From: a virus
IMG/VR virus record: IMGVR_UViG_3300024328_001297
Span: 1 to 27,658 of that record
Reading direction: 5' to 3' (one strand)
Length of the DNA stretch: 27,658 bases
A program made the translations under genes and the position numbers. Positions 20,833 to 24,913 of the stretch are shown here, in pieces (within the stretch, counting starts at the first letter, position 1; the number at the start of each line of letters is the position of its first letter). Below the pieces are notes generated by a model. It saw only the letters and a list, made by a program, of their open reading frames with translations. It ran no database searches and had not been told where the DNA came from.

Positions 20833-21222
20833 TCACGCGGCAGCCCTGCCACTCGAACCGGTGGCGTGGCCGGGCTGCCCCTGTTCGGCGAGCAGCAGCT
20901 CGGACAGCGAGACGGCAGCGGCCTTCGGCTTGGGCCGGGCGACGGCGATGTAGGCGAACTGATCCGGGCCCACGCGCTCCTGCACGAGATGCACGAGACC
21001 AAGTTCAGCGGCCCAGAAGGCCCGCGATCCAAGCCTGCTCAATTCGGCCCGCGCCGCATCCGACAGTTTTGAGAACATCGGGAAGACGTCGAGCACCAGA
21101 AAGCCGCGATGGTATTCCAGCCGGTCGCCGGGAACGGCTTGCGCCACCCAGGCGCAGAACGCGAGCTCGGACAGCGGTCGGCTGGCGCGAACCGTGATAA
21201 AGGGTGTGGTTTCCATGAACAT
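20833..21222 (-). CDS. Hypothetical phage protein
   Basis: A 129-residue protein starting MFMETTPFITVRASRPLSEL, with an AGGAGG ribosome site just upstream; an ATG two codons later is equally possible. The middle has 'RGFLVLDVFPMFSKLSDAAR' and 'FWAAELGLVHLVQERVGPDQ', consistent with a small alpha/beta protein, and the last ~25 residues are Gly/Ser/Ala-rich. No family or function is recognised. It is part of the unbroken minus-strand early run. Confidence 0.7.
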   Translation of the reverse strand: MFMETTPFITVRASRPLSELAFCAWVAQAVPGDRLEYHRGFLVLDVFPMFSKLSDAARAELSRLGSRAFWAAELGLVHLVQERVGPDQFAYIAVARPKPKAAAVSLSELLLAEQGQPGHATGSSGRAAA

Positions 21223-21239: not shown

Positions 21240-21494
21240 TTACTCAGGCCGCCGCGACATCGTCCCACCGGGAACCGAGGCCGCTTCGGCGTCCTTGATT
21301 GAGGCGTTGTGCAGGTCGTCCGGCTGGCCCGCATCGGCGTAGACCGCCACGAGTGGCGTCCCGTCCTGATGGGCACCGGCATTTTCGATGCGGTAGGCAC
21401 GCTGGTTCTGCAGGATTTCCGGCAACTCCCAGCGGCGGTAGAGGCCGGGGATGCGCTTGAGGTCTGCGGACAAGAGGTCGGCTTTGCGGATCAT
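21240..21494 (-). CDS. Hypothetical phage protein
   Basis: An 84-residue protein starting MIRKADLLSADLKRIPGLYR. It has a compact N-terminal half ('RWELPEILQNQRAYRIENAG') and a charged end. The context of a tightly packed run with a 17-base gap to the next gene supports it as real. No family recognised; no function proposed. Confidence 0.6.
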   Translation of the reverse strand: MIRKADLLSADLKRIPGLYRRWELPEILQNQRAYRIENAGAHQDGTPLVAVYADAGQPDDLHNASIKDAEAASVPGGTMSRRPE

Positions 21495-21578: not shown

Positions 21579-22301
21579 TCAGCGAAATTCTTGCAGGACG
21601 TCGCGCAGACGCCGAGTCGCCCGCTGATAGCGTTTGCGCGTCGCCGCCTCGGACAGCCCCATCTCGGACGCGACCTCGGCCTGGGAGAAACCGTCGATGG
21701 CCACACGGATCACCAGATCCGCTTCCGTGCCGATGATGCGGACCAGATCGCGGTGGAGCAGTTCGGGAATGGCGTCAGCCGACAGCACTTCACCGTCGGC
21801 CGGGATTTCGTCGGGATCGGCCTCACTGCGGAGGCTCTGGCGCCTGTCCTCGCGTTGGCGCGTTCTGATCAGGTCCCGCTCGATGTTCCGCAGGATGGTT
21901 GCCGCGATCCAATTGACCCGCTGCGGATCCAGACCACGAATGGCCTCGGAAGCTCGTGCAAGGATTTCTGATGCAACCTCATCGCCGGTGCCGACCTTGC
22001 GCCAGATCGATCTGCGCCGAACGGCATCCAGCCCCGGCCAGAGCGCCAGCAGCATCAACGTCAGGGCACAATCGGATGTTGCGTCGCCTGACTGCGCGAC
22101 CCTGACCAGTGCAACCAGCAGCCGGTTTTTCTCAGCTGGGCCGCGGCCACTGACGTGCAGCGTGTCCAGCAATGAGGCCGGATCAGCGAAATGTGCGAGC
22201 GGTTCGCTGTTGCGACGAAGCGCTTCGAAGTTACTTTGAAATTCGAGAGTTGAAGAAGACAACATGAGGTGATCACGGATCTCGTGCCACGCGATGGACA
22301 T
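21579..22301 (-). CDS. Sigma-70-family RNA polymerase sigma factor-like protein
   Basis: A 240-residue protein whose C-terminal third looks like sigma region 4: 'LVIRVAIDGFSQAEVASEMG' followed by 'LSEAATRKRYQRATRRLRDV' (about 195-235) is a helix-turn-helix with the ECF-type spacing. The middle ('VNWIAATILRNIERDLIRTR', about 128-147) resembles the region-2-type helix. The N-terminal ~90 residues are not typical of sigma factors. It may redirect host RNA polymerase to phage promoters, or act as a sigma-like regulator. A perfect hairpin at 22302-22330 ends exactly at the ATG, so translation is probably controlled. An internal ATG at 22265 is the alternative start. Confidence 0.7.
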   Translation of the reverse strand: MSIAWHEIRDHLMLSSSTLEFQSNFEALRRNSEPLAHFADPASLLDTLHVSGRGPAEKNRLLVALVRVAQSGDATSDCALTLMLLALWPGLDAVRRRSIWRKVGTGDEVASEILARASEAIRGLDPQRVNWIAATILRNIERDLIRTRQREDRRQSLRSEADPDEIPADGEVLSADAIPELLHRDLVRIIGTEADLVIRVAIDGFSQAEVASEMGLSEAATRKRYQRATRRLRDVLQEFR

Positions 22302-22330
22302 TGGACGCCTGCCTTGCGGCCAGGCGTCCA
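22302..22330 (-). promoter_or_regulatory. Start-abutting RNA hairpin of the sigma-like gene
   Basis: On the minus strand TGGACGCCTG pairs perfectly with CAGGCGTCCA across a 9-base loop. The loop can close two more pairs around a GCAA tetraloop after a bulged G. The 3' arm ends directly before the ATG at 22301, and the only AAGG/AGG ribosome-site candidate (AAGGCAGG) lies in the loop and 3' arm. Translation of the sigma-like gene should therefore be blocked unless the hairpin is opened. Confidence 0.75.
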
Positions 22331-22400
22331 GCGCCTTGTCGTGGCCAGGTCAGGACGTCGTGCGTCTCTGCGATTTCAGGAAATTGGTGAGATGCGCGCC

Positions 22401-22646
22401 TCAGCGCGCGGGTGATTGCGCCTGGTTCAGCGTGCCGCAGCCGCGACACGTGGCCTGAACCGGAAAGCCCACGAAATACTCGTGCCCTCGCGCAAAACGC
22501 AGATGCATGCGGCCGTCCCGGCAGACACCGAGCAGCTTGTCACAACGCGTACAGCGCCATTCGGGGCTGAAAGGGGTGGGTTTCGTCTTGGCGCCACCGG
22601 TCCAGTTCGTCTGGGCTGGCTGGCGAGAAGTGTCGGGAGTCGGCAT
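22401..22646 (-). CDS. Com-like zinc-ribbon protein
   Basis: An 81-residue protein with four paired cysteines, C32-x2-C35 (RCTRCDKLL) and C67-x2-C70 (CRGCGTLN), separated by about 31 residues; a fifth cysteine is at 42. The RCxxCxKLL...CxxCxxxN pattern is that of Com, the phage Mu translational activator of mom, and related zinc-ribbon RNA-binding proteins. The N-terminal ~25 residues are basic and Pro/Thr-rich. It is the first gene of the minus-strand run, and its ribosome site sits inside a hairpin (22651-22676). I infer an RNA-binding regulator that acts on its own leader and on the downstream sigma-like gene. A generic zinc-ribbon protein is the alternative. Confidence 0.65.
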   Translation of the reverse strand: MPTPDTSRQPAQTNWTGGAKTKPTPFSPEWRCTRCDKLLGVCRDGRMHLRFARGHEYFVGFPVQATCRGCGTLNQAQSPAR

Positions 22647-22650
22647 TGGA

Positions 22651-22676
22651 AGTGCTCCTCTTTGCTGTGGAGCACT
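22651..22676 (-). promoter_or_regulatory. RNA hairpin enclosing the Com-like ribosome site
   Basis: On the minus strand AGTGCTCC pairs perfectly with GGAGCACT around the 10-base loop ACAGCAAAGA. GGAG in the 3' arm is the Shine-Dalgarno sequence, eight bases before the ATG at 22646. The hairpin ends four bases before the start codon. Like the hairpin at 22302-22330 it has GCAA in the loop and is followed by the context TCCAATG. Confidence 0.75.
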
Positions 22677-22692
22677 CCTATTGGACGCAAGA

Positions 22693-22734
22693 ATCGGAGT
22701 TCGTCAGACCTCGGAACGGAGCCGGATCGGAGTT
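22693..22734. repeat. Direct repeat ATCGGAGTT
   Basis: ATCGGAGTT occurs at 22693-22701 and 22726-22734, a 33-base period, in the 92-base gap between the Com-like gene and the 724-residue gene. It could be an operator in the early promoter, or a trace of the junction where the cargo gene was inserted. Confidence 0.4.
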
Positions 22735-22738
22735 GATC

Positions 22739-24913
22739 TCAGATCGCGATTTCCCACCACTTACGTTTCGGAGATCGGACAAAGTCTGCCTTGAGCTTTT
22801 TCCAAAGCACAGACCCAAAAATGTTGGACAATGATTGGTCCTCAATGCCTGAAATAAGATCTGCTGTTACGATTGGTGCGGGGCCATTATTGTGGGCGTC
22901 CACAAGCCGCTGAACGACGAGCAGCCTCTGTTCACCCGATATGTCGATGGATCCCTTTCCCGGCACAAAAAGCGTTCCGGAATTTTCGCCAGTGCGTTCA
23001 AGCTGCACGGTCAGCCCGCCTCGCGCGAGAGATTGGTCGCGTCGAAAGATGGCCTTGAGCTTGTCCGCAACCAAGGTGATTTCCGGTTCGTCGGCTTCCA
23101 TGTGATCGGCAAGAGGCGTCAGAACATTCGCAGCAAGGCACGCCCCCGCCGCGTTTCCAGCCTGCAGCACCAGCCCAATCCCAAGGCTGCTGCGTGCCCT
23201 TAGCTCTCCGTCGACCGACGCCCTGACTTTTTCCTGGTCCAGACTGCGAGCCAGGTAGATCGGAACATCCCGGTTGTCGATCTCGAGCGTGCCAAGATAC
23301 TGCAGATGTTTATTCAATTCCTCGATGGCAGGCGCATCCAGCGTATCTGCCAATCGGGCGCGAAGATGCTCCTCGACCCAGCCATCGCGCACACGATAAA
23401 TTCTATAACGATCTGGACTGCCACCACTGGGGGTAACATGGCCCTCTGCGACTTTGAGAGCGACCTCGTCCGGTTGTGCAACGACTTCTGCCGCAACCGG
23501 GCCAATTCCGTCTTCGTCATCGATCAGGTCGTCGCCTTCCCAGCCCGCGGGCACAAGGAAACCCAATTCTGTCAGAAGAGCCGGATCGATTCCGCGATCC
23601 AGCAGCCATGCGCCTGCGATCCTGTCGGCGCCGATGTCCCAGATGGCGAGCAGTGCAGGCACAATGGCCATGCCTTCATCAGCGCTCGGGGCGCGCCCCT
23701 CCCGCATGATGTTCCAACGCCGAAGCAACCGGTGACCGAGTACGCGCTCGAAATGATCGTCCAAGCTGAGCAGGCTGCTTGTGTTTCGGTCGGTCAAAGT
23801 GAAATTGAGTGTTTTCTCATGTGATACGCCGGCGCGGCGATACCTGACTGCAATTTCCACAAAGCGGATCGCGACGGCGCGGGAGAAAATGCGGTCAAGA
23901 CCGGGCTGACCACCAATAATTGTAGATAAGTTTTGATTTATCGTCGTCGATAGAGAAAGGCGATTTGCCAAATTAACAACGCTGATTTCAGCACGGATCA
24001 CCTGAGCACGTAGGATTACTGCGTCTTCCAGTTCAGGCGTTTCCAGATGAAACCCGTTCAGGAATTGCGAGATATCGTACGCCTGAAAATCGACCGGCTG
24101 GTTCGAATACGTCTGATCCAAAGCCGTCTCAATGAACCGCTCGGCGATGGTGTGGCGTAAGGTTCTGTTGCCTGCCCGAACATGAACCCGACCTGTCGAA
24201 GGCGTGTAGACGATCATCGCTTCACCCGGCGGTCGGAAATAGATGCGGGACCGATTGCCGGAATCATCAATCTCTCGAACGCTGGTCGGAGGGTTGGGGT
24301 GAAATAGCAGATACATCTCGGCAGCCGGTTCGTCCCCATCCTCCGGAATGTCGAACCGGTCAATGCTATATCCGTCTCCTCGATCCAGCTCGGTATTCAG
24401 CTGGGAAAGCAGCGCATCGAGTATTTCGCTGCCAGCGTCAGGACCACCGTCCGTGGACGGATCGGCCATAAACGTCTGATAGTGCTTGTCGTAGCGACGG
24501 TACATGCGCAGGTGCAGGCTGTTTTCGGCCGCTTCGAACAGGCTCTGTTCGCGAGTGAAGGCCCAAAGGCTGCGCGCAAGCTGATCCCGCTGGTTCATGA
24601 GTTCCCGGGAGCGCTCCGGTTCGAGCTTCGCCTTGGCCAAGCCTTCGAGCACGAATTGACCTCGGTCCGCGATGAGGGTGGCAATGCGCGCGGCCTCCGA
24701 CTCTAGTGGCCCCAAGCGGTCCTTGTTTTCCTGATGCAGCATTTTGCTGGCGGTAGCAGGACCTTCCAGGCTATCAGGCTCGAACTGGTAGTTCTCCAGC
24801 CAGTCCAGCCTCTCGAATGACCTGCTACGTAAAAATGCAGATAGCAATGACGGCTCTGCGTCATTGAGCAATCGAGAGAGATTCGGGCAGGTTTTGGCTG
24901 GGGCACGTACCAT
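22739..24913 (-). CDS. Unrecognised 724-residue protein (accessory cargo candidate)
   Basis: A large soluble protein with no family I can name. The N-terminus (about 1-150) is helical, with an Arg/Glu-rich coiled-coil-like stretch ('ESEAARIATLIADRGQFVLE', 'KLEPERSRELMNQRDQLARS'). Residues about 200-300 are strand-rich ('RSRIYFRPPGEAMIVYTPST', 'GRVHVRAGNRTLRHTIAERF'). A middle region follows with 'LGHRLLRRWNIMREGR', and the last ~75 residues ('DISGEQRLLVVQRLVDAHNN' to 'LKADFVRSPKRKWWEIAI') look like a DNA-binding winged helix. No Walker, nuclease or membrane motif is visible. A GGAG site precedes the ATG at 24913. The gene is more A/T-rich than its neighbours, lies beside the recombinase operon and is divergent from it, so it looks like cargo or a large DNA-binding regulator. 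Confidence 0.8.
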   Translation of the reverse strand: MVRAPAKTCPNLSRLLNDAEPSLLSAFLRSRSFERLDWLENYQFEPDSLEGPATASKMLHQENKDRLGPLESEAARIATLIADRGQFVLEGLAKAKLEPERSRELMNQRDQLARSLWAFTREQSLFEAAENSLHLRMYRRYDKHYQTFMADPSTDGGPDAGSEILDALLSQLNTELDRGDGYSIDRFDIPEDGDEPAAEMYLLFHPNPPTSVREIDDSGNRSRIYFRPPGEAMIVYTPSTGRVHVRAGNRTLRHTIAERFIETALDQTYSNQPVDFQAYDISQFLNGFHLETPELEDAVILRAQVIRAEISVVNLANRLSLSTTINQNLSTIIGGQPGLDRIFSRAVAIRFVEIAVRYRRAGVSHEKTLNFTLTDRNTSSLLSLDDHFERVLGHRLLRRWNIMREGRAPSADEGMAIVPALLAIWDIGADRIAGAWLLDRGIDPALLTELGFLVPAGWEGDDLIDDEDGIGPVAAEVVAQPDEVALKVAEGHVTPSGGSPDRYRIYRVRDGWVEEHLRARLADTLDAPAIEELNKHLQYLGTLEIDNRDVPIYLARSLDQEKVRASVDGELRARSSLGIGLVLQAGNAAGACLAANVLTPLADHMEADEPEITLVADKLKAIFRRDQSLARGGLTVQLERTGENSGTLFVPGKGSIDISGEQRLLVVQRLVDAHNNGPAPIVTADLISGIEDQSLSNIFGSVLWKKLKADFVRSPKRKWWEIAI

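Follow-up and report, generated by a model that had tools for sequence, protein, structure and literature searches.

On the minus strand of a 27.7-kb, prophage-like contig from a virus record, a gene for a small Com-like zinc-ribbon protein is followed by a gene for a sigma-like factor. This gene order raises the question of whether the first gene controls the translation of the second through the RNA between them. The original prediction, made from the letters of the window (the whole stretch analyzed here, 27,658 nt), placed a hairpin at each of the two successive start codons. Both hairpins are found at the predicted positions, both are more stable than 199 of 200 shuffled sequences, and both are conserved among relatives. 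We propose that the Com-like and sigma-like genes and the RNA between them may form a Com-type translational on-switch, a reading to which we assign a probability of roughly 0.55. Elsewhere, the contig carries genes for a terminase, a portal, a head protease, head decoration, and a major head protein, as well as for a helicase, a primase/helicase, a Sak4-like protein, and a serine integrase.

The Com-like gene (positions 22404 to 22646, minus strand) encodes 81 amino acids with a CxxC...CxxC pattern and the sequence KLLG. Two CxxC pairs with KLL after the first pair, the features that characterize the Mu Com zinc ribbon, are present in the Com-like proteins (49 members), and residues W30, R31, C32, C35, K37, L38, L39, G40, P62, C67, C70, L73, and N74 are invariant across 49 relatives. 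A profile search against the Pfam family of Mu Com (PF10122; gathering cutoff, 22.9 bits) bore out the predicted Com-like identity in part: the window copy falls below the cutoff (12.3 bits), but two orthologous relatives exceed it (L151 with 28.0 bits and L182 with 25.2 bits). The comparison of Mu Com with the Com-like profile was weak (hhalign probability of 36% over 15 columns), and a fold search of the PDB with the model of the Com-like protein returned no match. Through these relatives, the placement of the small gene with Mu Com is supported.

The sigma-like gene (21582 to 22301, minus strand) encodes a putative ECF-like sigma factor of 240 amino acids. Its product contains sigma region 4 (Sigma70_r4_2, PF08281; 27.8 bits against a Pfam cutoff of 25.7), and the same region was matched (E value up to 0.01) in 54 of the 56 sigma-like relatives listed; a search of the protein for Pfam region 2 gave no match. 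The AlphaFold model (pLDDT of 86) finds sigma factors, mostly of the ECF type, as its best PDB matches, with E values of only about 1e-2. In Foldseek, whole ECF chains align to the model (E value of about 1e-2; TM score below 0.5).

Directly after the sigma-like gene lies an 84-amino-acid gene (21240 to 21494, minus strand) without a family match. It is kept in 107 of the 108 loci that have enough downstream sequence and is probably a third member of the module; an anti-sigma or cofactor role is conceivable. Upstream of com, the product of a 724-amino-acid gene (22739 to 24913, minus strand) matches phrog_37634, a family of unknown function, and was detected, in two divergent forms, in 79 of the 102 loci whose upstream sequence reaches far enough. 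The leader that precedes com (22677 to 22738, minus strand), taken with its equivalents in relatives, comes in two or more conserved types, among them GGTCTAACAAACCGCTGATTATTGG and GGTCTGAC...CTCCGATTC, which are possibly a promoter or an operator.

Searches with both proteins and with the DNA of the element preceding the sigma start yielded several hundred loci; the 346 fetched loci that match the sigma-like protein contain 120 distinct variants of this element. Of 391 genomes sampled from one order, 31 (∼8%) encode the sigma-like protein. The named genomes that carry the module belong mostly to the Rhodobacterales; the few exceptions include Chelativorans and one bin of the Burkholderiaceae. 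A search of 50,697 records of isolated phages matched neither protein. In some genomes, for example, G002 and G369, the sigma module is present two to four times. The com-like gene is directly upstream in every full-length sigma locus inspected, its match starting about 300 to 348 nt, mostly 345 nt, before the sigma start. In loci L346, L220, and L076, the Com proteins are 90, 74, and 83% identical to the window type, while the sigma proteins are just 34 to 39% identical. The presence of close Com proteins before very different sigma proteins suggests that the sigma gene has been exchanged behind com.

The element comprises the last 68 nt before the sigma start and shows almost no insertions or deletions across the 120 variants. 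Between loci with a sigma protein identity below 70%, the element is 93.5% identical, compared with 46.6% at the fourfold-degenerate sites of the sigma gene, and an identity so far above these sites indicates strong selection of a noncoding kind. Its layout consists of a hairpin (P1), a Shine-Dalgarno (SD)-like purine run, a second hairpin (P2), and the start codon; an outer helix joins codons 1 to 6 to the SD region, and near-invariant single-stranded linkers lie within the element. Unguided RNAalifold on the alignment returned P1 (22354 to 22366), P2 (22302 to 22330), and the outer helix. In this structure, 97.4% of the cells are paired, compared with 23 to 48% in slid controls. At the gathering score, Rfam had no family for the element and gave only a chance-level microRNA match.

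The sigma start at 22301, rather than the alternative at 22265, is correct: all 120 aligned relatives have a start codon there (118 ATG, 1 GTG, and 1 TTG); GTG and TTG are also found in deep relatives. Hairpin P2 ends directly at this codon, as had been predicted. The SD-like run (22334 to 22339, minus strand) is located 5′ of P2; it is weak in the window (ACAAGG) and reads AGAAGG, AGGAGG, AGGAGGTG, or GAGAGG in relatives, with AGGAGG or AGGAGGTG in several deep lineages. Columns −36 to −33 are RAGG in 119 of the 120 variants. The existence of a conserved RNA element is nearly certain, and it likely provides translational control.

P2 (22302 to 22330, minus strand) is the second of the two predicted hairpins. 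It has 8 to 9 bp, a 3-bp top, and a GCAA loop (−29.0 kcal/mol; z = −3.9; 1 of 200 shuffles as stable), and 99.3% of its stem cells are paired. As it has no T run, we rejected a role for P2 as a terminator. Covariation, which had been named as a check on both stems, was found to some extent, with changing pairs in the hairpin at the com start and compensatory changes in P2, but the evolutionary events are few. The outer P2 pair (−29:−1) swaps between U-A and C-G with six coincident changes, although this ranks only within about the top 3% of rate-matched column pairs. In a single lineage, L347, P2 has undergone three double compensatory changes.

The ribosome site was originally placed within both hairpins. 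This is not so for P2, which has no SD of its own, the run lying outside it, and the idea that P2 alone hides the ribosome site gives way to a larger fold around it that covers the start. This closing fold (22286 to 22345, minus strand) pairs 22342 to 22345 with 22286 to 22289 and 22332 to 22335 with 22297 to 22300; according to both single-sequence predictions and the alignment, it encloses the SD-like run, P2, and the ATG. Changes in the outer helix are mostly one-sided among the variants. In 23 of 28 lineages, codons 2 to 7 pair with the leader more strongly than do synonymous alternatives (P = 1.7e-4), and four control codon windows show no pairing signal (P = 0.47 to 0.96). Early codons are generally thought to avoid structure, and codon selection toward pairing is therefore informative. 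The closing fold was not significantly weaker when leaders were exchanged among lineages (P = 0.14 to 0.15). As modeled, the RNA alone folds into a closed state that hides the sigma start.

The P1 hairpin (22352 to 22369, minus strand) consists of GACG-CACGA-CGTC (22354 to 22366) and an AG/CT extension, and we propose it as the first Com site. Its motif, GRYG[CT]NNGACGYC, is present in 117 of the 120 variants; in the loop, C is found in all 120, G in 119, and A in 118, with two variable bases. Among 60 sequences, the pair −64:−54 is A-U 42 times and G-C in the other 18, without a mismatch. On the protein tree, this corresponds to about four changes, which occur jointly with columns −36 and −21, and with so few evolutionary events, the phylogenetic covariation is only suggestive. 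Searching the window with the P1 pattern revealed a second copy, P1′ (22323 to 22335, minus strand; GGCG-CTGGA-CGCC), the proposed second Com site. P1′ is kept in 116 of 120 variants, and its variable positions are exactly the two loop positions NN.

The two copies share the consensus G-R-Y-G-Y-N-N-G-A-C-G-Y-C, with near-invariant loop C, G, and A, and are spaced 31 nt apart in 98 of 102 tandem contexts. Elsewhere in the loci, the motif is rare (0.02 per kb). A third match in the window (21085 to 21097, minus strand) lies inside the coding sequence of a 129-amino-acid gene and is probably due to chance. When bacterial genomes were scanned with the tandem motif alone, chance hits in GC-rich DNA overwhelmed the output. 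P1′ shares bases with the SD-like run and with the 5′ arm of P2; if it forms, P2 and the closing fold cannot. L385, the most distant relative, has lost P2 and kept P1 and P1′. By this analysis, the likely Com sites are P1, which lies outside both hairpins reported originally, and P1′, which overlaps the second of them.

Hairpin 1 (22651 to 22676, minus strand), located at the com start, is formed by AGTGCTCC and GGAGCACT (8 bp) with the loop ACAGCAAAGA (−17.2 kcal/mol; z = −2.9; 1 of 200 shuffles as stable). Here, the ribosome site is inside the hairpin as predicted: the com SD, GAGGAG, sits in the loop and the 3′ arm. The core GCTC/GAGC is present in 88 of 89 distinct leaders, and the pairs below it vary; lower-stem pairs 1 to 3 exceed all 300 shuffles and pair 4 ties with the best (the relatedness of the leaders being uncorrected). 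As the hairpin is conserved, has changing pairs, and holds the SD, com is probably itself translationally controlled. The proposal that the two hairpins share one Com signal found no support. GCAA and TCCAATG do occur at both hairpins in the window but are not conserved in relatives, whose hairpin 1 loops are mostly ACTCAGTCAGAG, CACATAGAG, CCTGAAACGAG, and similar sequences, and GCAA is therefore no shared signal. Autoregulation by Com through a shared site is likewise unsupported, since the P1 motif is absent from hairpin 1, which has just a loosely similar CC...GAG with a longer spacer.

How might the switch operate? Before Com is present, P2 and the closing fold would mask the start codon together with the SD-like run. 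The Com-like protein encoded upstream would bind the C-N-N-G-A loop of P1, and a second copy would capture P1′, which can form only once P2 and the closing helix have opened. The sigma start would thereby be freed, the sigma-like protein would be made, and a later phage transcription program would begin. The analysis shows the conserved element, its predicted folds, the tandem motif, the linkage, and the codon selection for the closed fold; that Com binds, that it activates and does not repress, and that a regulon follows are inferences. Com is probably the ligand of the element, and the odds that it acts as an activator seem about even. The SD in use may be the upstream run with P2 folded, in the style of a T4 split site, or alternatively, a weak AAGG/AGG within the opened P2. 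In a more specific model, a Com-family protein governs a phage ECF-like sigma factor through a deeply conserved and hitherto undescribed RNA switch with two sites: tandem C-N-N-G-A hairpins lie 31 nt apart, the second excludes P2 and the outer helix, and Com occupancy would directly select one of the two folds and start the phage transcription cascade. We put the odds of this model slightly below even. The original prediction knew of no Com-type switch before a sigma gene, and our literature search on the Com-sigma pair found none either.

An unlikely alternative to the Com-type on-switch is a split ribosome site without Com control, where an always-folded P2 brings the SD beside the ATG, activating translation and setting only its level. 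SD-like purines at a fixed distance 5′ of P2, the end of P2 exactly at the start codon, and the strong SDs of several deep lineages all suit such a site, and T4 genes 38 and 25 have the same arrangement (PMC3014915). However, such a site would explain neither P1 and the tandem motif nor the near-invariant linker, the constant com neighbor, or the codon selection for the closed fold; L385 lacks P2 yet keeps P1 and P1′, and the window SD is weak. As to the sign, the main alternative is that the Com-like protein is a repressor: bound to P1 and P1′, it would keep the SD within the P1′ stem and thereby turn sigma off after a burst. The sign could be repression because the final GG of the SD is paired once P1′ forms; two neighboring sites would suit cooperative repression, and site conservation is equal to that under the activation model. 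We nevertheless regard repression as improbable: it would be redundant for an RNA that is already closed on its own, and the Mu precedent is activation (PMC6483171).

It is also rather improbable that the Com-like protein acts elsewhere and that the element responds to the ribosome, to temperature, to a host RNA-binding protein, or to some other ligand. The near-invariant single-stranded linkers do suggest some trans factor, but the Com-like gene is linked in every full-length locus and the loop is identical to the Com target motif. A DNA element (operator, origin, or recombination site) or an overlapping coding sequence, as the strong primary-sequence conservation with almost no indels might suggest, is very unlikely given that the element always ends at the sigma start codon and shows compensatory stem changes and codon selection for pairing, that a conserved TGA stands in the sigma frame 51 nt upstream, and that in some relatives a stop codon interrupts one alternative frame (CTT TGA in L004).

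Com is known as an activator of one modification gene, mom. If a relative of Com gates a sigma factor across prophages that occur in about 8% of the genomes sampled from one order, Com would be a general regulatory tool and not an oddity of Mu, and if the on-switch is real, a phage transcription cascade would be controlled at translation. Com-RNA recognition can be tested directly, given the strict motif, the tandem spacing, and the many variants that occur in nature.

The closest known system is com-mom of phage Mu. There, as here, a gene for a small zinc-binding protein (a putative one here, by its zinc ribbon) lies directly upstream of its target gene, and a hairpin with a C-N(2-3)-GA loop stands just 5′ of a fold that hides the SD and the start (PMC6483171). 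The Com target defined for Haemophilus and Mu is 5′-CC(N)2-3GAG in a hairpin loop, with a crucial GA, and in Mu it adjoins and partly overlaps the mom inhibition structure (PMC6483171); motif copies overlap the inhibition fold in part here as well, with CNNGA in the loops of both P1 and P1′. The loop-closing pair differs, being G-C here (GC(N)2GAC) and C-G in the Com SELEX motif. Moreover, the target here is a sigma-like gene instead of mom, two near-identical 13-nt hairpin motifs lie 31 nt apart, the inhibition fold holds a separate internal hairpin (P2), and com, which does not overlap its target, is itself behind a hairpin.

In T4 genes 38 and 25, the SD, a hairpin, and then the start codon follow one another as they do here, and folding shortens the spacing from 22 to 5 nt and from 27 to 11 nt, respectively (PMC3014915). 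All variants except L385 have this geometry, in which a hairpin reaches to the start and the SD lies on its 5′ side; the SD is strong in some lineages only. Unlike the T4 sites, the element has an extra outer fold over the SD and the start, its SD is weak in the window, and one arm of its hairpin doubles as a putative protein site. The sigma-like protein, finally, resembles ECF sigma factors in its region 4, which exceeds the Pfam cutoff, and in a predicted helical fold that matches ECF structures, although with E values of only about 1e-2. It departs from them in lacking a Pfam region 2 match and in being phage-borne and tied to a Com-like gene.
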